DNA of 64,000 nucleotides, taken from positions 116,935 through 180,934 of the IMG/VR virus record IMGVR_UViG_3300008448_000004; one strand, 5' to 3'. Of the stretch, positions 19,728-51,971 are shown piece by piece. A program made the position numbers and the translations under genes. This DNA is from a virus. The notes under the pieces were generated by a model. The model was not told where the DNA came from, made no database searches, and worked only from the letters and a program-made list of their open reading frames with translations. How positions within the stretch are numbered: the stretch's first letter is position 1; each line of letters opens with the position of its first letter.

Positions 19728-21428
19728 TTAAAGAGTGTTAAGGTCGGTGACGTACACCTTAGCGTAGAATTCAGGACGAACCATTTTCTTAGCGTAGCGA
19801 GTCATTAAACCTTTTCTTGGTGTAAAGGTCTCAGGATCGTACACTAGAGGTGTCATGATCAACGGTACATAAGGAGCATATACAGCACCAGTCTCAAGGA
19901 ATTGAGAACCACGTAGACCAAGAAGGATTAAGTTCTCAGTTAAGTAAGGGTTCTTATAAACCTTATAACGGCTGTTTAATTGACCAACCTTCTGTACGCC
20001 GAATGCATACTTCATAGACTCAGTCTCACCGTTTACATCAGCTGCAAATCCAGGAATAGATTCAAGGATTGTAGAGATAGCAGGAGAAACCATCATGAAG
20101 TTAGCACCACCGCGTAGAGTTCTTTGGTGAATTACGTTAGAAAGCTTTTGAAGCTTAGTTCCAAGTGTCTGGAACCACTCACCCTGGGTGTTGTAGAAAC
20201 CACCAGCACCAGCTGCTACGATATTGTAGCTGAAGGTACCATCAGCGCCTGCAGTCCAGAATTTGTTAGCTACAGCAGACCATACTTCAGTTCCAGCAGA
20301 TGCATTCTGAATAAGCATATCTAGGATCTCAAGATCGATCTCAAGAGCGATATACTCACCTAACATAGAAGTTAGTTCAGCTTCAGCATCGATGTTCTGG
20401 AATTTCTCAAGGTCTTGAGCTAATTCCGGAGTCCATTCTGCTTTTAACTTACGAGTCTTAGCAACGATACCTTCAGATTCCATTTGAATCTTAATCTCAG
20501 GGATTACGATATCAGATGTAGAAGCAGCGTTTGGTACAGAGAAGTTAGCAGAAGCAGGAGTGTCTTCGAAGTCACCACGCTTGTTAAAGTCGGTTTGCTT
20601 AGTGTAGTAAACTACATAATTACCGGTAGCAGCAGTTGCTTCAGCAGTAGAAGCAGAAACGAAGAATAGGACGTTACCGCCGCTAAGTCTTGTAAATGCT
20701 TGTAGGTTGTCAGCAGACTCGATTGAACCAGAGTTAATGATAAAGCCTCTTACTGCATTAACGTCGAAATCAGTTAATGAAGAAGTAGGGATAGCAATCT
20801 TCTTAACAAGAGTAAGAGCTGAATCGCTACCACCTTGGATTGAAGAAGAGAAAGCTGTATCGTAGTTCACATCAGAGAAAGAAGCAGAAGCTACAGAAAC
20901 ACCAGAAGCGTTATAAGCTACAGATGCAGAGAATTGGTTAATTGAATAACCAAAACGACCAGCGCCATAAAGACCACCTTGAGCAAGGTTGCCGAAGTTA
21001 GTAGAATCAGTACCGAAAAGTGACTGACCGCTAACGAAAGGAGTCTTGTTGTTTGAATACTGGAAGTTTAAGTAGAAGATAAGACCGGCAGGTAGATTCA
21101 TAGGCTGAACGGAAACGAATTCCTTAGCAGCGATCATACCGAACACCTTTCTTACAAGAGGAAGAGCGATACCAGCCCACTGCTCACCTACACCAGTTGT
21201 GAAGGTTGCACCGCTTGTGCTGTTACCACCAGAGAAGTTAGAAGCAGACTCGACTACAAGTCTTTTAGCCTGATTCTCAAGCATTACTGCCATGTTTGTT
21301 TTGTCATAGCCATCTAGACCTTCTAGAAGACCAGACTTAGCCCACTTACCAGCAAGCTTCTTAGCAACAGATTGCTGCTGCTCAAAGCCGTTTGATGTGG
21401 ATTCTAAAAGAGAGTTAATAGTACTCAT
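19728..21428 (-). CDS. Major capsid protein (T4 gp23-like)
   Basis: A 566-residue protein, near T4 gp23 (521). The first about 60 residues are a helical propeptide ending QAKRLVVE; by homology cleavage after Glu60 by the prohead protease would leave a mature start SASNFSGGNSTSGATFTTG. Then come GIALPLVRKVFGMIAAKEFV, VQPMNLPAGLIFYLNFQY, and later LEIDLEILDMLIQNA and SRYKVYKNPYLTENLILLG, all typical of the gp23 HK97 fold. It builds the icosahedral head. It lies just after the scaffold gene (24-base gap), probably sharing its promoter, and is closed by a strong terminator. Confidence 0.96.
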   Translation of the reverse strand: MSTINSLLESTSNGFEQQQSVAKKLAGKWAKSGLLEGLDGYDKTNMAVMLENQAKRLVVESASNFSGGNSTSGATFTTGVGEQWAGIALPLVRKVFGMIAAKEFVSVQPMNLPAGLIFYLNFQYSNNKTPFVSGQSLFGTDSTNFGNLAQGGLYGAGRFGYSINQFSASVAYNASGVSVASASFSDVNYDTAFSSSIQGGSDSALTLVKKIAIPTSSLTDFDVNAVRGFIINSGSIESADNLQAFTRLSGGNVLFFVSASTAEATAATGNYVVYYTKQTDFNKRGDFEDTPASANFSVPNAASTSDIVIPEIKIQMESEGIVAKTRKLKAEWTPELAQDLEKFQNIDAEAELTSMLGEYIALEIDLEILDMLIQNASAGTEVWSAVANKFWTAGADGTFSYNIVAAGAGGFYNTQGEWFQTLGTKLQKLSNVIHQRTLRGGANFMMVSPAISTILESIPGFAADVNGETESMKYAFGVQKVGQLNSRYKVYKNPYLTENLILLGLRGSQFLETGAVYAPYVPLIMTPLVYDPETFTPRKGLMTRYAKKMVRPEFYAKVYVTDLNTL

Positions 21429-21452: not shown

Positions 21453-22601
21453 TTACTTGGTTTTTTTAATCCCAGCGAGAACTTGCCAACGGTTAACGAT
21501 GTCATTTTGTTCTACGATAGGTTGTGCTTTAGCAACCATTCCAGCAGGCTTAGAAGCAAATCCTACTGATTCTTTGATAGATTTTTTAGCTACATTGGTT
21601 GTAGCGATAGAATCTTGTAATGTTTCGTAAATCTTTTTAGCTTCTTTTACGTTTTCAGCACGATCAAAAGCATTGATAACTTTTAACTTCTGTGCTTCGC
21701 TTAAGGATTTAGCTTTGAAAATTTTATTTACATAAAGCAATTTAGCATTCAATAGGTTTACTTCGTTCAATTCAGTACGAAGTGTGTTTATTGTTTTAAC
21801 TGCTTCTTGTAAATCGTGTTTCATTTTCTTAACTTCTTCCATAGCTTTTTCTTCTTCTCCGTGTTTAGCTTCCATCTTAGGATCTTCTTCCTTGTCAGCT
21901 TCTTCTAGAGAGGCAAGAATTTCATCGAGAGTAATCTCGTCAACAGAATCATCGTGTACTTCAGCTGCTAAATCAACTTCGCCTTCGCCACCAGCTTCTT
22001 CGCCAGCGCCAGCTTCAGGTTCAAGAGCACCAGCATCATCTGCAGGAGCACCGCCCATTTGAATGTCAGAAAGTACGTCTCTGATAATGTCTTTAAGTTC
22101 ATCGACTGTTAGCTCGGTTACTTCTTCTCCACCTTCAACAGGGCCTTCTTCGCTTTCACCAGCTTCGTCATCTTCTTTTTCTTCTTTATCGTCAGCGTCG
22201 TCATCGTCGCCTTCTTTCTGAAGTTTTTTAGAATCGTCTTCAGCTTCAAGTTCAGCTAAAAGTTCGTCAAGAGTAACTTCGTCAACTTCACCCATATCAT
22301 CGCCTTCTTTCATGGGATCTTCGTCATGCTTAGCTTCCATCTTAGCGTCCTTTTTGTCATGTTTAGCTTCTCCCATGGCTTTTTCCTCTTCGTCATGCTT
22401 AGCTTCATCGACAGGCTTTTCTTCCTTGTCTTTTGCTTCGAATGCTAAAGATTCATCATCCATTTCAGATAGCTTTAACTTGATCATTTCTTGAACTCTA
22501 GGACCGAAAGTTTCTGCAATTTGCTCTTTGGCAAGTTCGTAAGCAGATTGGCGCAATGCTTTAGCGTCAGCAATAGCCTGCTTAATTAAATCGTTTTGCA
22601 T
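21453..22601 (-). CDS. Prohead core scaffolding protein (T4 gp22-like)
   Basis: A very acidic protein between protease and capsid genes. I chose the ATG at 22601 (MQNDLIKQAIADAKALRQ), giving 382 residues, because this is the amphipathic helix with which gp22-like scaffolds begin; an in-frame ATG at 22679 would add 26 residues that look unlike the family. The middle is low-complexity Glu/Asp/Lys/Ala with repeated EAKHDEE-like blocks and three copies of a DEVTLDELLAELE-like unit; the C-terminal third is coiled coil and ends NRWQVLAGIKKTK. Scaffolds of this type form the inner core on which gp23 assembles and are degraded by the prohead protease. Larger than T4 gp22 (269). Confidence 0.85.
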   Translation of the reverse strand: MQNDLIKQAIADAKALRQSAYELAKEQIAETFGPRVQEMIKLKLSEMDDESLAFEAKDKEEKPVDEAKHDEEEKAMGEAKHDKKDAKMEAKHDEDPMKEGDDMGEVDEVTLDELLAELEAEDDSKKLQKEGDDDDADDKEEKEDDEAGESEEGPVEGGEEVTELTVDELKDIIRDVLSDIQMGGAPADDAGALEPEAGAGEEAGGEGEVDLAAEVHDDSVDEITLDEILASLEEADKEEDPKMEAKHGEEEKAMEEVKKMKHDLQEAVKTINTLRTELNEVNLLNAKLLYVNKIFKAKSLSEAQKLKVINAFDRAENVKEAKKIYETLQDSIATTNVAKKSIKESVGFASKPAGMVAKAQPIVEQNDIVNRWQVLAGIKKTK

Positions 22602-22690
22602 TTTTACTTTTTTTGGGAATTGCTTATTAGAAGCAATATAAGAATTATAGGTATGTAATGCTACAATAGAGGGTAGCATATATTTGTACT

Positions 22691-22738: not shown

Positions 22739-23365
22739 TTATCGTAAGCAACAAACACCTGTCTGTAGACATATAATATCTCCTAACAGACTATCTACTT
22801 TCTTATACTTGTTGAAATGATTGATCTCTGAGGGAGTATAAGATTCTTTTAATACTGGTGTCATGAAAGAGCCGTAGGTAGAAGGAGTTGAGACAAAATC
22901 CCAACATATTAATTCTAGGTCATCTTCTACTTGAACTAGGTTTTCATCAATAGCTGAGACTGAGCCCATGGCTCTAGAAGATATACCAACTTTAATTCCG
23001 TTTTGGAATAAGGTTCTTAATATGTTACCCGAAGGGGTAGGTAATACTTCAATCTTACCGTATAGATCGTCTCCATCCCACCATAAGTCTAATATGTTAT
23101 GAGATGCGTTCTTTAAGTTAACAACAGGAGATTCTGGGTGATCTAATTCACCGAGAGCTCTATTTTCTGCGATAGGCCCGCGAAGGTATTTCTCTACTTC
23201 TCTTTTTAAGGATGGACCGTAAACGCGTCTGTTTGCATTTGGCTTATTCATAGCCTGCATCTTACCCTGTACTATTAGATTAGCGTTAGGGTTTATTTTT
23301 GATTCAAACAGAGCTTGAGGGCTAGGTTGAAAAGGCAAATATTCTATTAAAAGTTGTTTTGACAT
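22739..23365 (-). CDS. Prohead core protease (T4 gp21-like)
   Basis: A 208-residue protein, nearly the length of T4 gp21 (212). It has NRRVYGPSLKREVEKYL, the His motif RALGELDHPESPVVN (His76) and the Ser motif VGISSRAMGSV (Ser130 most likely nucleophile), which together define the herpes-assemblin-like phage prohead protease family. It cleaves scaffold, capsid propeptide and internal proteins after (Leu/Ile)-x-Glu. Its own N-terminus, MSKQLLIEYL, contains Leu-Ile-Glu, a possible self-cleavage site. This protease is the enzyme expected to remove the MIKL-type leaders of the genes at 37474-41941. Confidence 0.93.
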   Translation of the reverse strand: MSKQLLIEYLPFQPSPQALFESKINPNANLIVQGKMQAMNKPNANRRVYGPSLKREVEKYLRGPIAENRALGELDHPESPVVNLKNASHNILDLWWDGDDLYGKIEVLPTPSGNILRTLFQNGIKVGISSRAMGSVSAIDENLVQVEDDLELICWDFVSTPSTYGSFMTPVLKESYTPSEINHFNKYKKVDSLLGDIICLQTGVCCLR

Positions 23366-27839: not shown

Positions 27840-27846
27840 TGTAGGT

Positions 27847-29790
27847 TTACCCGATATCGTCTTTTAAATTAGATTCGTCTAAAAGACCGCTATCTTTTTT
27901 CTCTTCGAAAAGATTAACTTTTCTCCCTTTTATAGCATCAAATACCGCTTTATTTTGTAAGTATACCTTTGTTGTGTTTGTATTTTCTAGAGCTAAAGGG
28001 GATCCTCCTTGATACTTAGCTCTTATACCTCCTTGTTCGCCATTGGAATCACTACCTGGTAGATCAGCACGGCCGGTTCTGTCGCGTCCAAGTGGGTCTG
28101 CAGCTGTTCCGATAAATGATGCTTTCTCTGTCGGTCTTCCTGGTGATTTTCTAGGTTCATCTTTGAGCTCATCGTAACCTTGAGGAACATCCCCAGCACC
28201 TGCAGTGTAGTTAGCGTTGCCGCCATACATTGCTGCGATCTGGTGAGGAGTACCGTATGCTTGACCTGTTGCTGCAGGGTCATTACCTTCTTCTTCAATT
28301 TGCTTTAATCGGAAAGCTCTCTTCTTATCGGCTACCAGTAAGTCTCTTAATTCATCAAACTTATCTTCGCTGAACTGGAATAGGTTGTCGTAAATCCAAT
28401 CAGTAGGTAGTAGGTTATTCTCTTGTAACGCTGCTGCTAGATCTACTGTCTCTTTCCATAGAGCTATCATCTCTTGACGATATACAATAGAAGGAGGTGT
28501 TAAGGATAGAGAGAAGTTAGTTAAACTCTCATTAGTGTATCCTTGAGTGTATAAATGTACTAGTGCTATCTTTGTAAGCTCGCTTACTACTATATTCTGT
28601 ACTCTTTCTACAGTGCGTGCAAAACGAATATCTTCAGCAGCAAGAGTTGCCTTACCTGTTAAGTCTTTCTCATATCCTAAGAAAGCTTTAGGTATCCTTA
28701 AAGCTGCAAATAGTTTATCTCTTAAATAATCAACGTCTTCAATGCCGTTATAGTCTAATCCTTTAGCTGTATCTATTCTAGTTGATTGATCATTACCTCT
28801 AACTGGAATGAAGAAGTCCTCAAGCATGTTTTGGATGTTATACTTAAGGTTGTACTGACCTGTTTGCGGGTCGATGTAAGGAGTTTTCTTCATCTTAGAG
28901 ATCATTCTCTGCATATAGTTCTCAACCTCATTCGGTGGAATAGAACCTACGTTAACATAGAATACTCTTTTCTCCGGTGCTCTCACAATACGATGTATTA
29001 ACATCGCATCTTCCATTAGAATCATCTGCTTGAAAGTCTTTCTTGCAGGTTCTAGGTATGAACGTCCGTAAGGTAGGTAGTTAACATCACCTAGAAGTCT
29101 AAAGTGAGCCATTTCGTAGTTCTCAAAAACTATCTCTTGAGTAGAGCCTTGTCTTTGGTTGAATAGCGGAGTATAGCCGGTAGTTACAGATGATGCAATT
29201 GCGTTAGGATCGAATCTAAATCTTACATAAGAAGGATTCTTCGGATCAGCACCTTCTTCTCTTATAATGACATAAGCAGAAAAAGGAATTACATTATATA
29301 CTCCAAACTTCTCAGCTATTTCTAGCTTTAAGAAGAAGTCTCCATACTTACACATATTTCTAATCCACGACCATAAGTTAAACTCAATATTCATTACGTC
29401 GTAGAAAAGGTTGTAAAGTATCTTTTGGATATTTTCATCAGAAGATCTAATCTGTAGAACTTCACCTTGTTCGTTTTTAATAGTACACTCGTCAGCTAGA
29501 ACATCAAGAGCAGAAGCAATAATCGCATCTGTATCCATTCCTTCATAGTCTGTATAAAGTTGGAATTTCAGAGCTTGGAAATTCTGAATGATATTGTAGT
29601 TATATGCGTAGCTGTTAGAAGTTGTGTATAGCCTATTAAATCTATCCACAAGAGAGTTTGTCTGTAGTACACCGCTTGTCTGTATTCTATCGGTATCAAC
29701 AACTCTCAACTGATCTCCGCCGACGTTTCTGATGATTACATCGGAAGAAAAAAGTCTTTTAAGGCTCTTAAAGATATTGTTCTCTGCCAT
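27847..29790 (-). CDS. Portal protein (T4 gp20-like)
   Basis: A 647-residue protein with gp20-family features: SLVDRFNRLYTTSNSYAYN, DTDAIIASALDVLADECTI, NLWSWIRNMCKYGDFFLKL, EDAMLIHRIVRAPEKRVFY, VENYMQRMISKMKKTPYID, then RIPKAFLGYEKDLTGKATLA and LAAEDIRFARTVERVQ. It forms the dodecameric ring at one head vertex through which terminase packages DNA and to which the neck binds. The Gly/Pro/Asp-rich tail of about 130 residues is an extension relative to T4 gp20 (524). It follows terminase with a 19-base gap, and the ATG is only 6 bases from a TATTTATA element. Confidence 0.95.
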   Translation of the reverse strand: MAENNIFKSLKRLFSSDVIIRNVGGDQLRVVDTDRIQTSGVLQTNSLVDRFNRLYTTSNSYAYNYNIIQNFQALKFQLYTDYEGMDTDAIIASALDVLADECTIKNEQGEVLQIRSSDENIQKILYNLFYDVMNIEFNLWSWIRNMCKYGDFFLKLEIAEKFGVYNVIPFSAYVIIREEGADPKNPSYVRFRFDPNAIASSVTTGYTPLFNQRQGSTQEIVFENYEMAHFRLLGDVNYLPYGRSYLEPARKTFKQMILMEDAMLIHRIVRAPEKRVFYVNVGSIPPNEVENYMQRMISKMKKTPYIDPQTGQYNLKYNIQNMLEDFFIPVRGNDQSTRIDTAKGLDYNGIEDVDYLRDKLFAALRIPKAFLGYEKDLTGKATLAAEDIRFARTVERVQNIVVSELTKIALVHLYTQGYTNESLTNFSLSLTPPSIVYRQEMIALWKETVDLAAALQENNLLPTDWIYDNLFQFSEDKFDELRDLLVADKKRAFRLKQIEEEGNDPAATGQAYGTPHQIAAMYGGNANYTAGAGDVPQGYDELKDEPRKSPGRPTEKASFIGTAADPLGRDRTGRADLPGSDSNGEQGGIRAKYQGGSPLALENTNTTKVYLQNKAVFDAIKGRKVNLFEEKKDSGLLDESNLKDDIG

Positions 29791-29809: not shown

Positions 29810-31420
29810 TTATTTTAGCAACCAAGTTAAATCTTCGTTTTGTCCAAACTGATTTGTCATTTTCCATGGATGACGTTCTAAAGCTAAAGCGGGAGTTATT
29901 ATTTCCATGCCGTAGTTCGATTTGGACATATTGCCTAAGCTTGCTTTTGCAAGATCAATACCTGTTTGCCTAAATCTGAGAGCTGTATCTCTTAAGAATA
30001 ACCCAATACCTATCGGTATTACGAGGTCATCATTATATCCTTCAAGCGCTTGAGCTTTACCTGATTTCCAGATGAAAGTAGATAATTCTTCATGCGTTCT
30101 TTTAGACTGTACAATACAACTCTTATCATGAATATACGAAGTTAATTTCGAAATAACAAGAGGTCTTGTTCTTTGATTTGTAGAAAATCCAGGAACCATT
30201 CCATCTCCTCTATCAAAACGGCTTAAATACAGCTCAACATTAGTTAGAGCTATATCCGATCTTGGGGAGTAGTATAGATTAGGGTACTGTGATTCGACGG
30301 CTGTCTGTATTACATCCCATCCAATACCGGTGTTTTCTATAATGAGAAGTCCCATGTTCCACTCTGTAGCAACGCTGACAGCTAATCTACCTAAGTCTCT
30401 TGTGTCGGGCTGTCCGCGGTACTCTGCTACTTGCTTGGCTTCTTCAACTTCCATTACTTGAATAGTTGAATAGTCTTTTCCATCGCCTCTAGCTACGTCA
30501 ACTATAATTGCATATGTTTTAGAGTAATCGGGGTATTCCCAAAGCCAGTAGTTATGATCAATAAAACGTTTCTCTACAGGAGGCTTTATCAAACTCTCGT
30601 ACCATTTTAGTATCTCAGGTTCAATTACGGTTGCACCGGATGTTGTGAAGTCACAATCACATTCCTGGGCTGCTTCTCTTTTACCGAGTATCTTATCTTG
30701 TTCTTCTCTCCAGGTTTGAGTTCTTTCAGGATGTACTGTCCAGGGAAGTCTAATAGCAGTGAATTTATTTTCACCAATTTCTGCTTTAGTAAATTCTTTG
30801 TGAAACCAGTTACCTGTACCGTTAGGGGTAGATATAGCAATACATCGACCTCCGGTAGCAAGAGTCTGTTGAGCAGCTGTAAAGATAGTTTCGATGTTAT
30901 CAATAAACGCTGCTTCGTCAAGTATGAGTAGTGATACAGCTTCTGAACGGCCTGAGTCTGATGCGGCAGAAACTGCTTTGATTTGAGATCCATTTGCTAG
31001 CTTAATACTAAGTTTGTTGTTAAATTCTGTACCACCTGCAAATTCTTTAATCCAATTAGGAAGATGGTCGTATGCAAACGAAACTTTAGTGACAAGGTTT
31101 TTAGCAGTATCCTGCTTTGTTGCTACAACAAGGATGTTCTTATCTTTATTGAAAAGCATCATCCATAAGGCATAAGCAGATACTAGAGTAGAGATACCTA
31201 GCTGTCTAGACTTATTGACAATATTGTATTCGTTTTGTTGAAATACACCTAGTACTTTTTCTTGGAATAGGTAGAGATTAAATTGCATTCTACCGCGGGT
31301 GGGGTGCTGAATCCAGTAATATTTCTTCATGAAATATACAGGATCTTGGGCACAGCGTATTAGCTCCTGCCTTATAGCTTCTTTTAAGCTCTGCTGACTT
31401 ACTTGAGTTTTATTTTCCAT
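29810..31420 (-). CDS. Terminase large subunit (T4 gp17-like)
   Basis: A 536-residue protein with the ATPase motifs NKSRQLGIST (Walker A variant, 69-78) and LLILDEAAF (Walker B, 164-172), the coupling motif AISTPNGTG, and a C-terminal RNase H-like nuclease beginning IIVDVARGDGKDYS (Asp308). It pumps DNA into the prohead and cuts it. Slightly shorter than gp17 (610). It overlaps the upstream membrane-anchored gene by 22 bases. No small terminase (gp16-like) was recognised in the window. Confidence 0.96.
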   Translation of the reverse strand: MENKTQVSQQSLKEAIRQELIRCAQDPVYFMKKYYWIQHPTRGRMQFNLYLFQEKVLGVFQQNEYNIVNKSRQLGISTLVSAYALWMMLFNKDKNILVVATKQDTAKNLVTKVSFAYDHLPNWIKEFAGGTEFNNKLSIKLANGSQIKAVSAASDSGRSEAVSLLILDEAAFIDNIETIFTAAQQTLATGGRCIAISTPNGTGNWFHKEFTKAEIGENKFTAIRLPWTVHPERTQTWREEQDKILGKREAAQECDCDFTTSGATVIEPEILKWYESLIKPPVEKRFIDHNYWLWEYPDYSKTYAIIVDVARGDGKDYSTIQVMEVEEAKQVAEYRGQPDTRDLGRLAVSVATEWNMGLLIIENTGIGWDVIQTAVESQYPNLYYSPRSDIALTNVELYLSRFDRGDGMVPGFSTNQRTRPLVISKLTSYIHDKSCIVQSKRTHEELSTFIWKSGKAQALEGYNDDLVIPIGIGLFLRDTALRFRQTGIDLAKASLGNMSKSNYGMEIITPALALERHPWKMTNQFGQNEDLTWLLK

Positions 31421-37473: not shown

Positions 37474-37983
37474 TTATTTAATTCCTAATTCTCTTAATTG
37501 CTTTATTGTGTCAGCAGCAGAAGTATGTTTAATACCTATACCGCCTGATTCTCTCCATTCATCAATGTTCTTACCTCTATCATCTATCAAGATAGCATTT
37601 GTATTTGCAAACTGTCTTTTTTGACTTGCTCGTCTAAGGATTAACTTCACTCCGGGGAGATTTCTTTTTACCCAAACGTATTTTCCTATCTTAGAAGATT
37701 CTTCATTTGAAGGTGCTGATAGTAGTTCGGGGTTATGAGGTTTGATATAATCCCATAGGGCTTTTCCGTCAGGCATCCATTTTAAATTTGCCCAAAATTT
37801 TATTCCTGCTTTATCTAGAGGTTCCCAAAACTTATCCATGCCGAGAGCTTCAGCCTCTCTAGGAGTCATATGTGTCAGGTCTTTATAGCCTCTGTCGAAG
37901 TCAACTAGGACTCCGTCCATATCACAGTAAATTTTATACTGCTGCTCTTCAGCTTCTTTTAATATATCTAGTAATTTAATCAT
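37474..37983 (-). CDS. HAD-type phosphatase / 5'-nucleotidase-like, with capsid-targeting leader
   Basis: A 169-residue protein. HAD motif I is [10 protein letters not shown] (21-30) and the acidic motif is ILIDDRGKN (Asp134, Asp135), as in deoxyribonucleotidase-like members. Before the HAD domain lies [11 protein letters not shown], which ends Leu-Lys-Glu and matches four other proteins in this cluster. I infer prohead protease cleavage after Glu10 and packaging in the capsid. Substrate is unknown; nucleotides or nucleic-acid ends are plausible. It overlaps the upstream gene by 8 bases. Confidence 0.8.
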
Positions 37984-38608
37984 TCCAGATTACTTCTTTA
38001 AATTTTTCAGGACCGAGACCAAAATAAGCACACTTCCAATCACTTTGCTGAAAGAAAGGTAGGCTCATCCACTCATCTCGTCTATTCCATAGACATTTTG
38101 CAGCATCATCCCAGTCTATATTTAAAACTACATTTTCAACTTTTGTCTTTACTTCTTGAACTTTAAAATAATTGAAGTCGTCCCATTCGTAATGGAATAC
38201 TTCAAATACGACTCCTTCTCTATCTACATAGTCTAAAGCAAAATCAATGCCCCACTTGCTCTTTATTCTTGTTAATTTATGAACAATTGGTAATTCTTCC
38301 GACCATTTCTTGAGCTGAATGAAAGCTTCTCCTGCATATCCTTTTCTCTCTAGTATAGCAGCATGGTTTATATGTACTCCATCCCAGAGTTGATCTGCTA
38401 CAAACCATTCCTGTGAGAGAGCTTTTTTATGTCTCCAGGTTGTTACTTTACTGTTCACTTCAGCGTAATCTTCTTCTAGTTTAGAAAAATTATAGCCGTT
38501 TGTATCGAACAGATCTAAACAGTCGTAAGATGGATTCTCGTACTTTAAAATAGGGTTACTCCACAGTGGTGTGGGGTCAAACTTAGCTTCTAGTAATTGT
38601 AGTTTCAT
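37976..38608 (-). CDS. Unknown protein of the candidate packaged set
   Basis: A 210-residue protein starting [16 protein letters not shown]; Leu-Leu-Glu7 fits the protease rule though the leader is shorter than in its neighbours. The body is rich in Trp, Tyr and Asp ([36 protein letters not shown]) and shows no motif I can place. It is tightly packed between the HAD gene (8-base overlap) and the Cys-rich gene (2-base gap), so it belongs to the same operon. Function unknown. Confidence 0.7.
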
Positions 38609-38610
38609 AG

Positions 38611-38859
38611 TTATGTTGCTGGTTCAAACCAATCGGAACACCATTTTGAAGGGTCATCAATTTTCATGACATTACTATTGTCATTCCATTTAATAAAATG
38701 CTTACTGCTACAAAGATGCTTACCATCTTCTTTAGAGTAGTATTTACATACGTGGCATCCGAAGCCTTTGCTACTTTTCATAAAAGCTTTATGATTAGAT
38801 GGAACAGCGTATGTACCGCCACCGTATTGTTCTTCTAAAAGGTCTATTAACTTAATCAT
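38611..38859 (-). CDS. Small four-cysteine protein with capsid-targeting leader
   Basis: An 82-residue protein beginning [15 protein letters not shown]. After the leader there are four Cys in the pattern GCHVCKYY ... HLC ... KWCSDWFEP. The order C-x2-C, C, C followed by W-F-x-P resembles small iron-sulfur proteins of the high-potential (HiPIP) type, but a zinc site is equally possible. The Leu-Glu-Glu10 end fits prohead protease cleavage, giving a mature 72-residue protein. Clear member of the MIKL-leader group. Confidence 0.72.
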
Positions 38860-38860
38860 T

Positions 38861-39202
38861 TTATTTACTCTTTATAATTAATTCACCTAACACTTCTATC
38901 TTACCTACTAATTTTTGAAATTCTGTCATTCCCATTTCTACGTCTTTCCCTGCTTTTTTAAGCTCTTCTAACAATTCTCCGTATTCCTTAATTCCTTCTT
39001 CTACGTCAAATTTACCTTCGTTTGCTTTTTTGTAATAAGGAAGCTTTACTACGAAGTGGTTGTAGGTTAACATAGCAGGACCGCCTTTCTCTTTAGCATT
39101 ATCAGCTATTTTTTCTGCACCATCGTGACGTTTTTGAGCGAACTCTTTAAAGCTTTCCGTATCTAATATCTCTTCTTTTAGTATGTTTATTAATTTAATC
39201 AT
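38861..39202 (-). CDS. Small helical protein with capsid-targeting leader
   Basis: A 113-residue protein with the leader MIKLINILKE-E. The remainder is helical with EFAQKRHDGAEKIADNAKEK and FVVKLPYYKKANEGKFD. No family recognised. The leader ends Leu-Lys-Glu10, identical in its last five residues to two other members. It overlaps the upstream ART-like gene by 4 bases. Confidence 0.7.
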   Translation of the reverse strand: MIKLINILKEEILDTESFKEFAQKRHDGAEKIADNAKEKGGPAMLTYNHFVVKLPYYKKANEGKFDVEEGIKEYGELLEELKKAGKDVEMGMTEFQKLVGKIEVLGELIIKSK

Positions 39203-40230
39203 TGACAGTGGTAGTTTAAGTATCTCTGAAGTGCTTTTGCGTAATGTGTTCCTTTATCTTTTAATTTACCTTTTGCAGCTCTAACTCTAGAACAAGAAAG
39301 GTTACCTAATCTTTTCTTAAGAATACCAGGCTTTACAGGGTCGTGAACTCCTTCTGCAACTGCATTAATCTCTTCGTAGCTTAGGATGCCTGTTGGAGTT
39401 AGTATAATTTCATTCCATAAATGAGTTACATCCCTTTTACAAGCTGTCCAATCTCTACATATATTCTCTTCATATTCTGGAAAAGAAAATCTGAATAAGT
39501 TTGCAGCTCTATGCCCTTTATCTGTAGCAAAAGATTTTACGTCAGATTGAAATGCAGCTACTAAATGACCTTTTAGTTTAACGAGTATATTGCTTTCTGG
39601 TCTAAAGAATTTTTTAAATTGAGCAGTGAAGCAGGATATAGAGAATGTAGTTTGCGTCTGTATAGATGTAGCAATATTCTTTAATCCTTCTCTAGAAGTC
39701 CAGTGGTAAGCTACCGCTTCTATATCTGCAGAGCCGTATGTATCTACTGTAAACATTTCATCTAGTAAAACATAAGGTTCTATGTTTCCTCTAGAATAAA
39801 AAAATGCAATTTTATCATTTTCAATATTGACAAGATACTTCCCATACTCTTCTCTTATAGTCCATATTCTATGGTTTATAAAATCTTCTATAAAGTCTAG
39901 AACCATTTTCTTCGTATGCTTGTCGTATAATTCAGTTTCTATATACAGTTGGTAACTAAAGTATTTATTAACTAACTGTATTAGCCTTTTATCTCCTCCC
40001 ACTTCTCCTCCTCTTACGTCGTAACCTTGTTTTTGTAATTCTAGAAACTCTCTTGAAATATTTTCCCATTCCCGTATAGTATGAAATGCACTTTCGGGTT
40101 TAATATAGCCTCTCACTTTATACTCTGCGGCATCTTCTACGTAATACTCTTCTTCTTTCTGTAATTTAACTCTTTCGAATGAATATACAGGCGTGGCTAC
40201 CTCTTTTAATATGTCTCTGAGTTTGATCAT
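39199..40230 (-). CDS. ADP-ribosyltransferase-like protein with capsid-targeting leader
   Basis: A 343-residue protein with the leader MIKLRDILKE-V. The C-terminal half contains AVAYHWTSREGLKNI (His176), TTFSISCFT (Ser197/Ser199) and HLWNEIIL (Glu274). This order, His-x-Thr/Ser, a Ser-rich strand, then a late catalytic-type Glu, fits ART-fold transferases, including PARP-like ones, but no single motif is decisive. T4 packages the ADP-ribosyltransferase Alt with a cleaved leader, so a packaged ART would have a direct precedent. The N-terminal half is unassigned. An alternative is a KptA-like fold. Confidence 0.55.
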   Translation of the reverse strand: MIKLRDILKEVATPVYSFERVKLQKEEEYYVEDAAEYKVRGYIKPESAFHTIREWENISREFLELQKQGYDVRGGEVGGDKRLIQLVNKYFSYQLYIETELYDKHTKKMVLDFIEDFINHRIWTIREEYGKYLVNIENDKIAFFYSRGNIEPYVLLDEMFTVDTYGSADIEAVAYHWTSREGLKNIATSIQTQTTFSISCFTAQFKKFFRPESNILVKLKGHLVAAFQSDVKSFATDKGHRAANLFRFSFPEYEENICRDWTACKRDVTHLWNEIILTPTGILSYEEINAVAEGVHDPVKPGILKKRLGNLSCSRVRAAKGKLKDKGTHYAKALQRYLNYHCQ

Positions 40231-41183
40231 TCGTATATCTGTGGATTTTTACGTCCGTAGTCTCTCATTATCATAGCAGCAGAAGCATTTGCTTCATTCT
40301 CAATATCACTACCTGTATCTCCTGCTCCCATTTGTAACATCCCTAATTCGTTCTGCTTATGATGTACCAGCTCGTGAGCTAGAGTTCTAAAAATATCTGC
40401 AAGGTTTCTATTACCGGTATAGACACAGAGTTCGTACGTTTCGGGATTATAATGCCCGAAGGTAAAGTTTTGCTTAGGAAAGCTTGGGTCTGAGATTGTT
40501 TCGATGCCGGGCATGTTATCTACCTCTAATAAATCACAGCAGTGTTTTATAAATTTCTGTATCTCTAAATCTCTAGGATTCTCTAAACCTGCTTCGTAGC
40601 TTTCTTTAATAGTAGCTGCTAGCATTTTAAATAGCTGTTGAGATTTACCTTTAGCGTTGACTGCTTCAGGTACACATTCTTTAAATTTATCGTAATTACC
40701 TGTCCTCAATGCTTCACGCATTGTTGTAGCTGATATTCTTTCAAACTTTTCCTCTACAGGAATGGTAAGTATTTGATCTCCAAAACGTTTCTGTAGAGAT
40801 TTAAAATAGTTTTGATCTTCTACTTCGTCTTTAGCTCCGGCTAGATAGATTGGTTTTTGTTGAGGTCTTGCTTCTATAAATTTATAAGCATAGGTTACCG
40901 GGCTAGGGTATGGGGATATCTCAACACTTGCTTTCGGAATAGGGTTACACTCTAAATAAGTTTCCCAAGTCTTTAAGCTTTGTTGTGCTGTTATACCGTC
41001 TCTTTCTTTTTGACTAATTACTATATATACCTGATCTATGTATCCTCTAGAGGCTAGGTCTTTAACGACTTCAAAATGGCCTTTATGTGGAGGTTTGAAT
41101 CCTCCGGGATATATGCAAGGTCCTAGCTCATAAGTTACATCTTCTACAATGCTCTTAGCTAGATTAAACGCCGTTAAATTCAT
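40227..41183 (-). CDS. Nucleotidyltransferase fused to a zinc metallopeptidase-like domain
   Basis: A 318-residue protein with two parts. Residues 21-170: cytidylyltransferase/NMN-adenylyltransferase fold with YPGGFKPPHKGH (HxGH-type motif, 31-36) and RISATTMREAL (149-159, equivalent of ISSTxxR). Residues about 240-318: gluzincin-like motif TLAHELVHHKQNELG (His270, Glu271, His274) and IENEANASA (Glu295 or Glu297 as third ligand). The N-terminus MNLTAFNLAKSIVE-D ends Ile-Val-Glu14, again a protease-type site. It is flanked by 4-base overlaps. I infer a packaged bifunctional protein; substrates are unknown. Confidence 0.78.
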   Translation of the reverse strand: MNLTAFNLAKSIVEDVTYELGPCIYPGGFKPPHKGHFEVVKDLASRGYIDQVYIVISQKERDGITAQQSLKTWETYLECNPIPKASVEISPYPSPVTYAYKFIEARPQQKPIYLAGAKDEVEDQNYFKSLQKRFGDQILTIPVEEKFERISATTMREALRTGNYDKFKECVPEAVNAKGKSQQLFKMLAATIKESYEAGLENPRDLEIQKFIKHCCDLLEVDNMPGIETISDPSFPKQNFTFGHYNPETYELCVYTGNRNLADIFRTLAHELVHHKQNELGMLQMGAGDTGSDIENEANASAAMIMRDYGRKNPQIYE

Positions 41184-41941
41184 TTCTTTATATTTAAAAA
41201 CGTTTTTATTTTCGAATCTAGTTCATCAAAAGCTGTAAAATCGTTCTGGTTTACTTTATCTATCATACCTTGAAACTCTCTCTCAAGAACTGTTTTTTGT
41301 TCTGGAGATAATTCTTGGTAATTTGGGTTGATTTTAAAGAACTGTTCTACTTTATCTGCAGAAAAGGTATCTGGTCCGCCATCTGGGTCATTGTTATTGA
41401 CAATGGCAAATTTGGAATCTCCAAAAGTTTGCTTATAATGGTCAATGTTATTAGTAACATCCTTCCAGCTGCGAAGCACGATAGACGGTTTTAAGCTTCT
41501 ATCTCTTAAAGTATTACGCCTTAAAGTTGTCATCGGAGAAGCATAAACCATCACCATCATTACATCGTATCCTGCATTCTCTAGTTCATTTTTCTTCTTA
41601 GTAGTTGTATTCTTACTACCTCCTGTAACGTCCATTATAACAGGTCTTCCTCTGAGAACAGCTTCTTTATAATCCTCTTTAGTCTTTATCTGAGCTTTTT
41701 GCATAGCTTTAGATGCTTGACTGAGCTGATCTGATGTGAATGCTCCTTGATTCATACTTCCACCGCCTATTTTTTCTAATTCTGGCTCGAAGTACTTATC
41801 TGGGTTTAGGACGTATTCTTGGAATTCAGATGGAATGTAGTTTTTAATAATAGTACTTTTACCGGATCCTGCCGGTCCTGCAAATAGTATAGCTCTTTTA
41901 TTTTTAGCTACCTCGTATAAAATGGTTCCGAGTTTTATCAT
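41180..41941 (-). CDS. Zeta-toxin/polynucleotide-kinase-like P-loop kinase with capsid-targeting leader
   Basis: A 253-residue protein with the leader MIKLGTILYE-V. It has Walker A AGPAGSGKST (21-30), then LNPDKYFEPEL, Asp104 in IMDVTGGSKNTT, and RRNTLRDRSL, the order found in zeta-toxin and polynucleotide-kinase relatives. Zeta kinases phosphorylate UDP-sugar precursors of the cell wall, while other members act on nucleic-acid ends; I cannot say which applies. It heads the packaged-type unit and has a TATTTATT element 16 bases upstream. Confidence 0.78.
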   Translation of the reverse strand: MIKLGTILYEVAKNKRAILFAGPAGSGKSTIIKNYIPSEFQEYVLNPDKYFEPELEKIGGGSMNQGAFTSDQLSQASKAMQKAQIKTKEDYKEAVLRGRPVIMDVTGGSKNTTTKKKNELENAGYDVMMVMVYASPMTTLRRNTLRDRSLKPSIVLRSWKDVTNNIDHYKQTFGDSKFAIVNNNDPDGGPDTFSADKVEQFFKINPNYQELSPEQKTVLEREFQGMIDKVNQNDFTAFDELDSKIKTFLNIKK

Positions 41942-41957: not shown

Positions 41958-41965
41958 AATAAATA
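41958..41965 (-). promoter_or_regulatory. TATTTATT element before the kinase and packaged-type operon
   Basis: The coding strand reads ACTATTTATTATGAG, 16 bases before the ATG at 41941, in the 25-base gap after the nuclease gene. It suggests late expression of the seven-gene block, as needed for packaging. Confidence 0.58.
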
Positions 41966-43743: not shown

Positions 43744-45399
43744 TTAGTGTTCCTTACGTTCACCAGGACCGTAGTGGTCAAATCTGTGATGTTCTGTAGG
43801 ACTTGCTAGGAGTATTCCGGGTTTAATGTTACCTTTTATAATCTCTTGATGTACAAAGCTCATCCAAGTCTGTTCATAAGGGTATTGCCATTTTGTATCT
43901 AGAAAGACTTTCTTATTTCCTTCTTGACTCATTATCTGAGGCCAGTTACAGTAGTAAATCTCTCCATCAGCGTAGCTTAGGTTAGCATAGTTTTTAATGC
44001 TATTGAACTTAGTACGAGGAGCATTTTTAGATTGACCAGAGACGGGTAATGTGCAGTTGTTAGGCCATAGTTCTTCCCTAACGTGTTGAGGTACATTATA
44101 CCAGGACCATTGTGTGGAGTTATCTCCAAAAAATTCAGAGTAGTTAAACTTAAGGTAATCAAAATTTTCCTTCTTTGTTATCTCAACTACCTTGTTAAAG
44201 AGGTCTGTTATCTTCCTTTGAAACCCGTTTCTACATACAGCTTCAGATCCTTCATAGAATACCATATCGTCTTCGTAGAAGATACAGTACTTATAACTGG
44301 TTTGAGCAAAATGTTCTGCAATAAATTGTCTACCTCCGCAGATGCCTATATTATCTTTTTTAATTTCTTCAAAATCGTATTGATCGCAGAGCATTGAATA
44401 CTCTATATCTGTATCTTTATTAGTTGAATTGTTTAATAGGTATTTTTTTGTCTTAGCTAAAAAATTATTGTCATACTTACTAAACGATTCGCAGAGTTTT
44501 TCAAACTGTTTAGGAGAGTTATAGGTTATTACGTAGAGAGCAACTTCTCTATCATCGACAGCTGGTTTATATCCTTTTAGTTTTTCAAAGAAAGGCCATA
44601 CTAACCCGTTACCTTCCAGTTCAAACCTATGCACCATTTCTGGATATATATGGGAGATTATTGTGAAGATGCTTTCTTCGGTTCCCATAAGTCCTTCTTT
44701 CAAGCTAGTGCTAAGAAATCCGTAGTATACGCTACTTATTTCATTTAACACGTCTTTTCTTCCGCCAAAAAATCCACCTCTATTTACATACTCTACGTAA
44801 TCTGTTTGACAGTAGCGAGCAATCTGCTCTCTAGGAAAGCCATGAATCTCAGTTCCGCCGATGTACGGGTAAGATAAAAAAATAAAGTTACCGTGTATAT
44901 TACAGTAGTTAGGTAAATTATCGAATACTTTATCGTGGTAGAAGTACCCCGGATGTACGGTGCTTGTTATTCCTGCATCAATCCAGAAAAAATATTCTGA
45001 ATTGAAAGGATTAAAGAAGCTAGCGTCGTTTAGTAAGAACATCTTACTCATCACAACTGGGTTATACATCTCTAATGTAGCTTGGGGAGAATCTGCTAAC
45101 CATGCAGCTTGCTCAACCCATCCTGGTTTTTGACGGAGATTGTTTGTTATCTCAGTAAATTCAAACCAAGTTTTCATTTGATCTAAAGAGCGAACCATTA
45201 CGGTTGTGTTGTGCTTTTCTCGATGCTGCCATACAAACTCTTCATCTTCCGGTGCAACGAATATAAACATATTAGCATCAGTTCGCATAAGATCCGCGAA
45301 GCGCTGTAAGTAGTGGTCATAACCTCGTCTAAAGCCTTCACTAATTTCTCCCCTGCCTAAATTCCAGAGAGCTGTCACTATTGTAACTCTATTATTCAT
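43744..45399 (-). CDS. Two-domain glycosyltransferase (HtrL/YibB-like plus GT2-like)
   Basis: Start chosen at the ATG at 45399 (MNNRVTIVTALWNLGRGEI), giving 551 residues; it overlaps the previous stop by ATGA. The first about 300 residues match the HtrL/YibB type: TIVTALW, YFFWIDAGI, NRGGFFGGRKDVL. The C-terminal half starts VALYVITYNSPKQFEKL and has CIFYEDDMVF, typical of GT-A transferases with an acidic metal site. Cytoplasmic; likely adds sugars to a virion or host glycan. It is the last gene of the glycan cluster before primase. Confidence 0.78.
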   Translation of the reverse strand: MNNRVTIVTALWNLGRGEISEGFRRGYDHYLQRFADLMRTDANMFIFVAPEDEEFVWQHREKHNTTVMVRSLDQMKTWFEFTEITNNLRQKPGWVEQAAWLADSPQATLEMYNPVVMSKMFLLNDASFFNPFNSEYFFWIDAGITSTVHPGYFYHDKVFDNLPNYCNIHGNFIFLSYPYIGGTEIHGFPREQIARYCQTDYVEYVNRGGFFGGRKDVLNEISSVYYGFLSTSLKEGLMGTEESIFTIISHIYPEMVHRFELEGNGLVWPFFEKLKGYKPAVDDREVALYVITYNSPKQFEKLCESFSKYDNNFLAKTKKYLLNNSTNKDTDIEYSMLCDQYDFEEIKKDNIGICGGRQFIAEHFAQTSYKYCIFYEDDMVFYEGSEAVCRNGFQRKITDLFNKVVEITKKENFDYLKFNYSEFFGDNSTQWSWYNVPQHVREELWPNNCTLPVSGQSKNAPRTKFNSIKNYANLSYADGEIYYCNWPQIMSQEGNKKVFLDTKWQYPYEQTWMSFVHQEIIKGNIKPGILLASPTEHHRFDHYGPGERKEH

Positions 45400-46289
45400 A
45401 AAATTAAATTTCTCAATTTTGTCTTCCAATCTACGTGGTGTATATTATGTGCTATTCCATAGCTAAGATAAGAAGAATGAAAAGTATTGTAGGTTAATAT
45501 CTGATCGCAGTACTTAAACATAGCCATTTCTGCTGCGGTTTCTTGAGCATGCTCTATAAAATCTGAAACTGATCTTGTGTGAGCGTTTTTGTAACTGTAA
45601 CTGTAGTAAGACGGTATGTCGTGAGTAAAGCGATTTTGAAAAGTGTTAGGGTACTCCGCAGTTATTGTATCAACAAAAAGTCTATTATTAGAACAGATCA
45701 TTATGTCTTGTTCCATGTTTTCTACTATAAACTCTTTTATTTTCCGGATAGGTGCTATATATGCTGGTATTCTATTTAACTCTTCGTAGGTATTCCCTAT
45801 GTGTATATCCTGTATTCTGAAATGTACTCCTTTTATTTTAGTCTTATTATCTCGGAATAGTTCAACTTTATTCAGAACTTCCTGGCTTAGGAATTGCTTA
45901 GATGTATCGAAAAACCAATCGTATTTATGTTCTACTACAGTCTTACGGTAGAACCAAGAGTAGCTATATATCTGCGCTTGGTAGTTTTCTAACTCCGGTG
46001 TAATTTCCGATACGTAAATCCTAATAGAATTTTGAAGCTGTGGTAGTAATTTATACCTCTCAATTAATAGAGGTTCTTTTCCGTAAGAGGTATTTCCTTC
46101 AAAGCAGCTCTGGTCAAATAAACAGTCTAATGGTAGGTCTGAGGGGAAATACTGATTCAACACATCCCAGGTTACCTCTACTTCATAGCCAAGTGTTTTT
46201 AAGTCTTGATATATCTGGCAGCCAGAAAGCATACTGGTGTATTGATCGCCTATTCCTGAAATGCATTGTAGTACTATATATGCTTTCAT
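45396..46289 (-). CDS. Fucosyltransferase-like glycan enzyme (uncertain)
   Basis: Start chosen at 46289 (MKAYIVLQCISGIGDQYTSM), where TGATG couples it to the preceding gene; 297 residues. The N-terminal GIGDQYTSMLSGCQIYQDL resembles the Gly-rich donor loop of GT-B enzymes such as NodZ/GT11-like fucosyltransferases, and GVHFRIQDIH recalls their HxRRxD-type loop. The C-terminal YCDQILTYNTFHSSYLSYG fits their acceptor region (Ser near a Thr-Phe). The family is not certain. Position inside the cluster supports a role in glycan synthesis. Confidence 0.6.
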   Translation of the reverse strand: MKAYIVLQCISGIGDQYTSMLSGCQIYQDLKTLGYEVEVTWDVLNQYFPSDLPLDCLFDQSCFEGNTSYGKEPLLIERYKLLPQLQNSIRIYVSEITPELENYQAQIYSYSWFYRKTVVEHKYDWFFDTSKQFLSQEVLNKVELFRDNKTKIKGVHFRIQDIHIGNTYEELNRIPAYIAPIRKIKEFIVENMEQDIMICSNNRLFVDTITAEYPNTFQNRFTHDIPSYYSYSYKNAHTRSVSDFIEHAQETAAEMAMFKYCDQILTYNTFHSSYLSYGIAHNIHHVDWKTKLRNLIL

Positions 46290-47197
46290 CAGTTTTCTAA
46301 AATTTCTTCCCAAATACGAAAGATAGGTTTAGGTAGGCCTAGAGATGAATCCCATACTTTATAATGAAAAGTGTCTACATCAATACCGGTCTGGTGAGTT
46401 TCAAATACGTGTAGTTGTAATTTAGAAGGCTCTATTGTATCTGTAACATACTTCATTATAGCTTGTTCAAAACACAATATACCTGCTTCAATATGTTTAT
46501 TTACACCTTGTGTGAATAAGTCACAATACTCACGCACAACTTCTTTAGCACCGCCGAAAAATCCGGCGATTGGATAATTTCCCGGCTTAGGAGAATAGTC
46601 TTGGAAAGAATGATATCCATCTTGTGGATTAGTACCCACCAGTGTTACGAACTTCCCGTCAGATTTTTGGGTAAGTTTATCAAGCATTTCTCGATTAAAC
46701 ACCAACGTAAAGTTGTACTGTTTGTAAGGATGCTGGTGGAGATCTGGTGCGTCTTTATCGGGGCAATGTCTGTAGGGGAATATCTGATTTGATTGAAGTC
46801 CTGCATCAACCCAGTAAACATAGTCTACGTCGTCGGTACACTCTTCTTTCATCACATCAAACTTGCCCCACATAACTTCTGGCGGTCTTCCGCTTAAGCA
46901 GAATCTTTCTATTTCTTCCTGTGTTTTATTATCTTGTAGTCCTCTAATTTGTCTTGAGTATTTTATCTCTGAAAGCTCTTTTACTTTTATCTCTAGATTT
47001 GTAAGGTTGTACTCCTCCTTAATTGTCTGAAGCTCGTTTAGATTTCTGGCGTGAGTATAACATACTACCGGGTATTGAAATCCACGGCAATGGCTAATTA
47101 TAGAGCCTAGGTATCTAGATTTCCTTGCTGGCATAGCTCCGGTATATCCTTTCTCAACAATATCCATCCAGTATCCTGTTACTAGTTTTGTTCTCAT
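46289..47197 (-). CDS. HtrL/YibB-like glycosyltransferase
   Basis: A 302-residue protein starting MRTKLVTGYWMDIVEKGYTG, with YVYWVDAGLQSNQIFP and YPIAGFFGGAKEVV. The WVDAGL and GFFGG motifs are shared with the 551-residue protein encoded two genes downstream, so the two may be paralogues. The acidic WVDAG is probably the metal/donor site of a GT-A fold. It is coupled to the next gene through TGATG. Confidence 0.72.
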   Translation of the reverse strand: MRTKLVTGYWMDIVEKGYTGAMPARKSRYLGSIISHCRGFQYPVVCYTHARNLNELQTIKEEYNLTNLEIKVKELSEIKYSRQIRGLQDNKTQEEIERFCLSGRPPEVMWGKFDVMKEECTDDVDYVYWVDAGLQSNQIFPYRHCPDKDAPDLHQHPYKQYNFTLVFNREMLDKLTQKSDGKFVTLVGTNPQDGYHSFQDYSPKPGNYPIAGFFGGAKEVVREYCDLFTQGVNKHIEAGILCFEQAIMKYVTDTIEPSKLQLHVFETHQTGIDVDTFHYKVWDSSLGLPKPIFRIWEEILEN

Positions 47198-47201
47198 AAA
47201 T

Positions 47202-47993
47202 TTAAAATTTTATATACTTCGTATCATGATATTTAGGGTAAAAGTAAAAGCATTCTGTCAAAGGTACAAACATATGCCAGTTCCAATTCATCTTAGATTC
47301 TAGAGCGGCTACACCGATCTCAAATCCGTCGGGGTAATTTCTTATATTATTTGCAATACTATACCAAAGCATCGATTCCCACTTTTGTACAAAGAGTCTA
47401 AATTTCCAATTGTTTCTAAAGCCTAAAAACTGTTCATTAACTACATGAGCTTCATCCCAAATTTCATGTTCTAGAACATTATAGTCTCTTAATTTTTCTT
47501 CAAAAAAACAATTCTCTAATCCATTACTTTTGTAATTACCTATTTGAGCTGGTCTCTCAAAAGCTACGTCTATGTCCATAACTTCCAAGTTATTAAAAAA
47601 AGTAAAGAGTTTTTCCTCAGCAAAACCGTCGTGTAGTCCCCAATCTCCATCCGCAAAGATAATATATTCAAAAGGTATGCCTTTGTTTAAACAAGCTTTT
47701 AAAGCTAAAACTTTTAAATTTAAGTTAAAAGTAAAACCGTATCCTTCCATGTGCAGTGGAAATTGAGAACGAGCATTAAAGCTCTCTACGGTTGTTATGT
47801 CTAATTTCGGATATTTTTCTTTAAACTCCTCGTATGGTAATCCTACAATATCTGGAAGTTTTTTAAAATCTTCTTCGCAGGTTGTAATATTAAAGTATCC
47901 TTGTTGAGTTTTTTCGTGGATTGCTGTGTAAAAATCCAAACTCTTACTAAAGTATGGCTCTCCTACTGCTAAGGTAGTGAAGAAATAAGTCAT
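47202..47993 (-). CDS. GT-A-like glycosyltransferase
   Basis: A 263-residue protein with YIIFADGDWGLHDGFAEE, an Asp-Gly-Asp motif characteristic of metal-dependent GT-A glycosyltransferases, preceded by LNLKVLALKACLNKG as in the donor-binding helix. The C-terminus is rich in Trp/Tyr/Phe (MNWNWHMFVPLTECFYF). It overlaps the upstream gene by 4 bases. Donor sugar and acceptor cannot be read from the sequence. Confidence 0.65.
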   Translation of the reverse strand: MTYFFTTLAVGEPYFSKSLDFYTAIHEKTQQGYFNITTCEEDFKKLPDIVGLPYEEFKEKYPKLDITTVESFNARSQFPLHMEGYGFTFNLNLKVLALKACLNKGIPFEYIIFADGDWGLHDGFAEEKLFTFFNNLEVMDIDVAFERPAQIGNYKSNGLENCFFEEKLRDYNVLEHEIWDEAHVVNEQFLGFRNNWKFRLFVQKWESMLWYSIANNIRNYPDGFEIGVAALESKMNWNWHMFVPLTECFYFYPKYHDTKYIKF

Positions 47994-48682: not shown

Positions 48683-49296
48683 TCTACAATAAAGTCTTTT
48701 CGTATGAATAAATAATCTTCATGTACTAACTCTCGTGTTTCCGGGTTAAAATTAGTCCCTAGTCTCTCTCTTTTTATAAAACCTAGTTCTTCCATATAAG
48801 AAGTAACTTCAGATCCTTGTGGAGCTCCTGTATTGTATTCTACTCTTGCTAATTCTAATATAACTCCTTTAGCTTGTTGTATAAGATTCTTACCGCCTTT
48901 TAGTATGTCTAGTTCAGATCCTTGAGTATCAATTTTAATTAAATCAAATACTTTATTCTGAAAAAGTATATCTAAAGTTGTAGTTGTTAAGGTGTGTTGT
49001 TTTATTTTATCTTCTGCAAAGAAATAAGTTTTCTCTCGATAAAAAGAATTCCCTGTACATCTAAATTGTAGAGTGCTGATAAAAAGGGTTGCTTCTTTTT
49101 CTACATCACTAACTGCTCCTAGATAATAATCAACTCCTAGAGACTGTAGTGCTTCTTCGCATTCGGGATTTGGTTCTATTAAATAGTAGTATGCGTCAGG
49201 GAAATACCCTACAGATTGTCCGTAGAACTCTCCTATATTAGCCCCAATATCAAGTATAGACATCGGTGTAAAGTAATATTTGACTGGTCCAACCAT
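48679..49296 (-). CDS. FkbM-family methyltransferase
   Basis: A 205-residue protein with SILDIGANIGEFYGQSVGYF (SAM motif I), YYLIEPNPECEEAL, and LIKIDTQGSELDILKGG, the invariant FkbM signature. FkbM enzymes O-methylate sugars or natural products, and here would finish a glycan. It shares 4 bases with the downstream PLOD-like gene. The start at 49296 gives a normal family length. Confidence 0.87.
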   Translation of the reverse strand: MVGPVKYYFTPMSILDIGANIGEFYGQSVGYFPDAYYYLIEPNPECEEALQSLGVDYYLGAVSDVEKEATLFISTLQFRCTGNSFYREKTYFFAEDKIKQHTLTTTTLDILFQNKVFDLIKIDTQGSELDILKGGKNLIQQAKGVILELARVEYNTGAPQGSEVTSYMEELGFIKRERLGTNFNPETRELVHEDYLFIRKDFIVE

Positions 49297-49297
49297 A

Positions 49298-51964: not shown

Positions 51965-51971
51965 AGTTTAT

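Follow-up and report, generated by a model that had tools for sequence, protein, structure and literature searches.

A shared N-terminal leader on unrelated proteins of a freshwater T4-like phage resembles the capsid-targeting leaders of T4 and recurs as a modular tag in viral contigs

The 64,000-nucleotide window analysed here (bases 116935-180934 of the 180,934-bp viral contig IMGVR_UViG_3300008448_000004, from a freshwater T4-like phage) carries a cassette of seven consecutive minus-strand genes (37474-41941), the ends of which overlap or nearly touch in an operon layout. The cassette lies between a primase/exonuclease-like pair (names taken from the Flavobacterium phage immuto) and the terminase region. 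Five of the seven genes, those for the nucleotidase, the four-Cys protein, the small helical protein, the 343-residue protein and the kinase (Table 1), start with MIKLxxILxE, the remaining two start with MKLQLLE (37976-38608) and MNLTAFNLAKSIVE (40227-41183), and (L/I)-x-E forms the end of the leader in all seven. Both the near-identical decapeptide and the common ending had been proposed in a first-pass annotation of this DNA, and reading the starts of the open reading frames (ORFs) bore them out. At the DNA level, a degenerate pattern of the leader matched five times in the window, at exactly these five genes, and not once in 100 dinucleotide shuffles; the remaining 117 kb of the contig contained no MIKL-type leader. 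The five leaders are not the product of a recent DNA duplication, since they differ in synonymous codons (e.g. TTA or CTC for Leu4 and ATT, ATC or ATA for Ile2).

The labels that the first-pass annotation had attached to the bodies fared unequally. The HAD phosphatase proved to be a deoxyribonucleotidase/HAD protein, the four-Cys label was confirmed by the protein sequence, and the zeta-like kinase stood: this protein, with a Walker A motif GPAGSGKS, matched AAA_33 (3.3e-7) and Zeta_toxin (9.8e-7; 28.8 bits against a cut-off of 22.3), both over the Pfam gathering score, and belongs with the zeta-toxin/PNK-like kinases, any toxicity being putative. The small helical label is plausible. The ART-like label for 39199-40230 was not upheld: there was no Pfam match, no convincing PHROG match and an empty PDB sequence search, and the structural model, on which no fold search was run, had a pLDDT of 49.6. 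The nucleotidyltransferase-like protein matched CTP_transf_like (2.7e-4), phrog_395 (4.8e-9) and the metallo-protease family phrog_87 (0.0012); the N-terminus of its homologues is variable, with an (L/I)xE inside the first 22 residues in 44 of 50 distinct ones, and in other contigs there are also homologues of about 200 residues that apparently lack the C-terminal part. Family searches returned no match for 37976-38608. To judge by family names, the nucleotidase and the nucleotidyltransferase may act in nucleotide or NAD metabolism early on, and host molecules are conceivable substrates of the zeta-like kinase. None of the cassette bodies matched a T4 internal protein (IP) or Alt family in Pfam or PHROG; our claim concerns a system of the capsid-targeting sequence (CTS) type, and orthology to the T4 IPs is not claimed.

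Table 1. Features of the cassette, its upstream motif and the head genes of the window (positions are those of the window).
Feature	Coordinates	Strand	Basis
gp23-type major capsid protein, N-terminal LLE sites at residues 9 and 36	19728..21428	-	phrog_138 7.5e-67
Probable scaffold (gp22 position), 12 (L/I)xE sites	21453..22679	-	gene order
gp21-type prohead protease, LGELDHP (His) and GISSRAMGS (Ser) motifs conserved with T4 gp21	22739..23365	-	phrog_207 4e-45
gp20-type portal	27847..29790	-	phrog_213 1.5e-60
Terminase large subunit	29810..31420	-	phrog_2 1.7e-44
NT5C/HAD 5'(3')-deoxyribonucleotidase (leader 37954-37983)	37474..37983	-	phrog_2643 6.7e-27
210-residue protein, leader MKLQLLE (38588-38608)	37976..38608	-	ORF
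Four-Cys protein (leader 38830-38859)	38611..38859	-	sequence
Small helical protein, leader MIKLINILKE (39173-39202)	38861..39202	-	ORF, homologues
343-residue protein, leader MIKLRDILKE (40201-40230), body without family match, C-terminal module (39202-39369)	39199..40230	-	ORF, homologues
C-terminal module of about 55 residues (GVHDPVKPGILKKRLGNLSCSRVR...NYHC)	39202..39369	-	recurrence in other phages
NMNAT/cytidylyltransferase-like nucleotidyltransferase with C-terminal HELVHH metallopeptidase-like part, leader MNLTAFNLAKSIVE (41142-41183)	40227..41183	-	Pfam/PHROG
Zeta-toxin/AAA_33-like P-loop kinase, leader MIKLGTILYE (41912-41941)	41180..41941	-	Pfam
TATTTAT late-promoter-like motif, 24 nucleotides upstream of the first cassette gene	41959..41965	-	motif scan

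When viral contigs were scanned with the leader pattern, at least 119 stretches matched. Among the viral matches listed, 140 of 141 lay at plausible ORF starts and half of the leader loci held at least two leader genes; scrambling the pattern at constant composition left 23 matches across the viral collection as a whole, none at a gene start. The first-pass annotation had proposed searching related phages for the leader on unrelated domains and had named its presence in host genes where no prohead protease acts as a finding that would speak against packaging. The search grouped 234 distinct leader proteins into 83 unrelated body clusters by BLAST (107 if coverage was demanded) among the loci listed, with cluster representatives matching ART-PolyVal, NUDIX, RNase_T, RimK ATP-grasp, phosphoribosyltransferase, zeta kinase, 2'-5' RNA ligase and an M23 peptidase with tail lysozyme, among others, and an exonuclease was also found among the bodies. 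The small helical body belongs to a cluster of 19 leader-bearing proteins and the four-Cys body to one of six at six loci (GFGCHVCK...WCSNWF). In host genomes the leader proved rare: 257 Gb of bacterial and archaeal genomes gave 53 matches, 17 of them at plausible starts, and for three of these 17 the contig, in two cases from a Flavobacteria bin, held two or three leader genes. The leader is thus a modular tag in viral contigs. Phage-like leader contigs were also seen inside Flavobacteria and Rickettsiaceae metagenome-assembled genomes (L271, L274 and L275), which hints weakly at hosts among the Bacteroidota.

Conservation was examined in 100 leaders that fall outside the DNA pattern used for fetching. 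The search expression fixed residues 7, 8 and 10, so that Glu10 and Leu/Ile/Val8 occur in all 234 proteins by definition; positions 2 and 4, where it was looser, were kept in 99 of the 100, and position 8 was Leu or Ile in 98, in agreement with the (L/I)-x-E consensus of gp21. Leu4, Ile/Leu7, Leu8 and Glu10 were kept in this set while third codon bases varied (Leu4 was encoded by TTA in 58 and CTA in 25, with four other Leu codons), which argues that selection acts on the peptide.

In T4, the first ten residues of IPIII suffice for packaging, substitutions assign targeting to residues 4 and 7 and processing to residues 8 and 10, and gp21 cleaves after L/I-x-E (PMC9026906). T4 ipII and ipIII start with MKTYQEFIAE, and gp24, itself a gp21 substrate, starts with MAKINELLRE; MIKLxDILxE shares their register and agrees at all informative positions (4, 7, 8 and 10), with hydrophobic Leu4 and Ile/Leu7 at the targeting residues. 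As with IPI, IPII, IPIII and Alt, a leader of about ten residues (within the range of about 7-19 for leaders of this type) is common to otherwise unrelated proteins and ends in (L/I)xE before the cut, in a genome that encodes gp21 and in a putatively late-type context. The system differs from that of T4 in its consensus (MIKLxDILxE as against MKTYQEFIAE), in the overlapping operon of five to seven genes, in a far broader range of enzymes, in a separate, shareable C-terminal module and in that packaging is here a prediction.

The gp21-like protease that the first-pass annotation had reported was verified, with both its His and Ser motifs kept. Among isolates, the nearest gp21 proteins are those of Microcystis phage Mel-JY01 (49.5%) and the Flavobacterium phages immuto (45%), and among the 27 records searched first, gp21 was present in six of the seven leader-bearing contigs longer than 100 kb. 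The scaffold gene, for which the family search gave no convincing match, is a candidate docking partner of the leader. TATTTAT, which we take to be the reverse complement of part of the T4 late motif TATAAATA, occurs in 19 sense copies in the window, 18 of them 12-37 nucleotides before gene starts, mostly of structural genes, and none inside the cassette; in the rest of the contig, 12 of 38 same-strand copies are similarly placed. The motif is possibly a late promoter giving very short 5' leaders. Because it precedes the cassette as well as mostly structural genes, the cassette is likely to be transcribed late together with the head genes.

Outside the T-evens, virion data exist for cyanophage S-CREM2, in which mass spectrometry detected 52 virion proteins, including a S-adenosylmethionine (SAM) hydrolase, a kinase and a cytidylyltransferase (PMC10665884). 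These three start with MKDFDSFLEE, VKRFDAFLTE and MKNFSSFLTE, and the hypothetical ORF13 with MKDLHSFLTE. The expression [M/V]Kx[F/L]xxFLxE has exactly four matches in the 174,876-bp S-CREM2 genome (OR473000) and none for a reversed control, and the four are the starts of ORF6 (SAM hydrolase), ORF13, ORF14 (kinase) and ORF154 (cytidylyltransferase). All four proteins belong to the published virion proteome, which speaks for presence and not cleavage; the chance of four out of four is about 0.003 (52 of about 221 annotated features were detected), a suggestive figure and not a blind test, as the pattern was defined after viewing the sequences. A broader N-terminal rule gave a Fisher p of 0.0024 over the examined ORFs, which cover part of the genome. 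The S-CREM2 authors did not report the leader or its link to virion proteins. As in the window, unrelated enzymes, broadly including a cytidylyltransferase and a kinase, share one decapeptide (there of the MKxFxSFLxE type) in a phage with a T4-like head and gp21; leader wording, gene order and host differ, and the S-CREM2 proteins are virion-detected whereas those of the window are predicted from DNA. The Cas9-like ORF12 of S-CREM2 has FASFMAE near its N-terminus.

Other phages offer partial parallels. Several virion proteomes of cyanophages are reported to include NMNAT-like proteins (PMC9602691), the family to which 40227-41183 belongs. Phage Syn9 provides no independent test because it has only one clear CTS-like start (gp184, MKKFSAFLSE). 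In the Agrobacterium jumbo phage Atu_ph07, eleven adjacent genes, gp053-gp063, likewise have a common type of leader that ends in (L/I)xE, here M[RK]W.QL[TN]E (MRWEQLTE type) or MRLFQLLE. They lie within the cluster of coding sequences 31-76, in which 29 virion proteins were found by mass spectrometry, cluster-wide and not assigned gene by gene. Unlike in the window, many of the Atu_ph07 bodies resemble paralogues, and they are mostly YRGM. Capsid packaging was predicted earlier for phage polyvalent proteins (PMC5512222), and an ART-PolyVal domain (1.3e-27) is present in one of the leader proteins, L152:4092-5093. Polyvalent proteins are large and multidomain; those described here are mostly small, with an N-terminal tag that is probably cleavable.

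Leaders of different wording are found on the same cargo. The C-terminal module of 39199-40230 (DPVKPGILKKRLGxLSCSxVR...YAKALQRYLNYHC), which has no match in Pfam or PHROGs, is 85-94% identical in many other proteins and up to 94% identical across many phages (L310-L381), and occurs also alone behind MIKL leaders (62 residues) or attached to other bodies; in its PVKPGILKKRLG...NYHC form it follows MIKLxDILxE in some phages and a leader of the MKK..L..IIKEVLEE type in others. This module is possibly a second packaging tag or a DNA-binding tag. The same two leader types precede a DRC..PSAY (DUF5872-like) module; the DRC..RIADRKYDKPSAYKSGAIVRCRKG cargo module at L139:7726-8115 and its homologues (DUF5872, 1.1e-8) have at least two leader types. 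On the gp21 tree, leader class (MIKL or MKK..IIKEVLEE) changes three times against a shuffled mean of 11.7, which fits a leader adapted to the head machinery. Deoxyribonucleotidase copies carry a leader in all four head regions read (the window, immuto, Melnitz and HTVC008M), and all five non-head copies (Atu_ph07 gp301, Cr30, XacN1, L338C and RHph_N34) start at the domain, leaderless. This comparison omits phiM5, where the start position is ambiguous, and phiM12, which has a short N-terminal extension, MIERNIEMNIKP, without (L/I)xE and the genomic context of which was not read. At the same position, immuto has an NMN adenylyltransferase, an NT5C nucleotidase starting with MKKVMGNLADLLLEE and a protein that starts with MRLLELLREA and is homologous to the small helical body; the leaders of this block are MRLLELLREA and MKKVMGNLADLLLE.

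Homologues of the 39199-40230 body, at about 65%, have neither the leader nor the C-terminal module. We had considered the leaderless copies (L304-L309) as untagged cytoplasmic versions, an argument that was dropped because those of L305 and L309 lie directly downstream of a MIKL-leader gene and a split gene is possible. In L305:2038-3765 and L309:1264-3765 the body stands alone after that gene, as a split gene or a coupled pair.

Taken together, the leader is very probably a T4-type capsid-targeting and processing leader for packaged cargo; this part of the first-pass reading is strongly supported, and its ART-like label is not supported. We infer packaging, docking and cleavage in this phage, as well as host targets for each body. 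The cassette would be transcribed as a single late operon, the hydrophobic side chains at positions 4 and 7 would dock each protein into the prohead core, and the gp21-type protease would cut after Glu10 (Glu7 and Glu14 in the two variant leaders) to leave mature cargo inside the head. Being short and not tied to any one body, the tag may have been grafted by these phages onto many enzymes and small proteins. The tagged proteins would travel in the virion and, ahead of phage gene expression, probably pass into the host along with the DNA. Injection and effector roles, plausible for several of the enzymes, are favoured with less assurance than the leader function itself.

The leader might instead serve assembly: the proteins would be minor structural or core components that help to build the head or neck, with incidental enzymatic folds and no delivery to the host. 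Proteins adjoining gp21 and the capsid protein in relatives also have N-terminal (L/I)xE leaders (MNNQFATQFLREE, and MANLVQSLLTES of the capsid protein), and T4 IPIII influences head assembly; however, the 83 unrelated, enzyme-containing clusters scattered over contigs fit cargo better, in T4 both Alt and IPI enter the host by injection, and we regard this explanation as unlikely. A short amphipathic N-terminal helix could also direct proteins elsewhere in the infected cell (membrane or replication compartment) or be used for docking, in either case without involving heads or gp21, packaging being deduced here; the invariant Glu10 in (L/I)xE, the match to T4 residues, the putatively late-type context and the S-CREM2 proteome point to gp21 instead and make such a role improbable. 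Selection on DNA, for translation initiation or as a recombination hot spot, would suit the A+T-rich ATGATWAAA starts, upstream of which no obvious Shine-Dalgarno sequence is seen, but synonymous positions are free to vary while residues 2, 4, 7, 8 and 10 are kept, and the unrelated MKK..IIKEVLEE, MKxFxxFLxE and MRWEQLTE leaders keep the acidic (L/I)xE-type end and not the DNA; it is the least credible of the three.

Several points weigh against a packaging leader. We found no virion proteomics for the phage of the window or a close relative; gp21 was present in just 14 of the 27 records searched first, most leader contigs being fragments; and in some relatives the 39199-40230 homologue is leaderless directly after a leader gene. 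The S-CREM2 leader is MKxFxxFLxE and not MIKL, and its authors caution that abundant proteins could co-purify and that contamination is possible (PMC10665884). Shared ancestry alone could explain the co-variation of leader and gp21, and certain bodies behind the leader (lysozyme/M23) could do their work during entry and not in the cytoplasm.

On balance we lean towards a broader proposal, in which the capsid-targeting leader would be a general address label with which a large, mostly uncultivated T4-like group ships at least 80 unrelated, rapidly exchanging proteins into its hosts, with lineage dialects (MIKLxDILxE, MKK..IIKEVLEE, MKxFxxFLxE and MRWEQLTE) matched to the head machinery and cargo swapping labels between lineages. 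Proteins that enter the cell with phage DNA are known in few model phages only. If the proposal is true, the label predicts injected anti-host proteins directly from metagenomes, and an N-terminal signature would list candidate packaged effectors in thousands of unculturable phages, as secretion signals do; it is the breadth of the leader, and the prospect of predicting packaged cargo from sequence, that give it interest. For the S-CREM2 kinase, cytidylyltransferase and SAM hydrolase, the shared leader favours packaging where the authors left packaging or contamination undecided.

Two further regions were noted. At about 27508-29300 of the contig (L083), a small plus-strand island in a minus-strand genome has TATTTAT upstream, and its proteins, which are head-protein-like, start with MVHNLQLRE and MKLIKLLSQRLLE. 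In the window, 43744-54459 holds a run of genes that, judged by N-terminal sequence only, resemble those for glycosyltransferases, FkbM-type methyltransferases and sugar epimerases and may encode glycan or DNA-modification enzymes.

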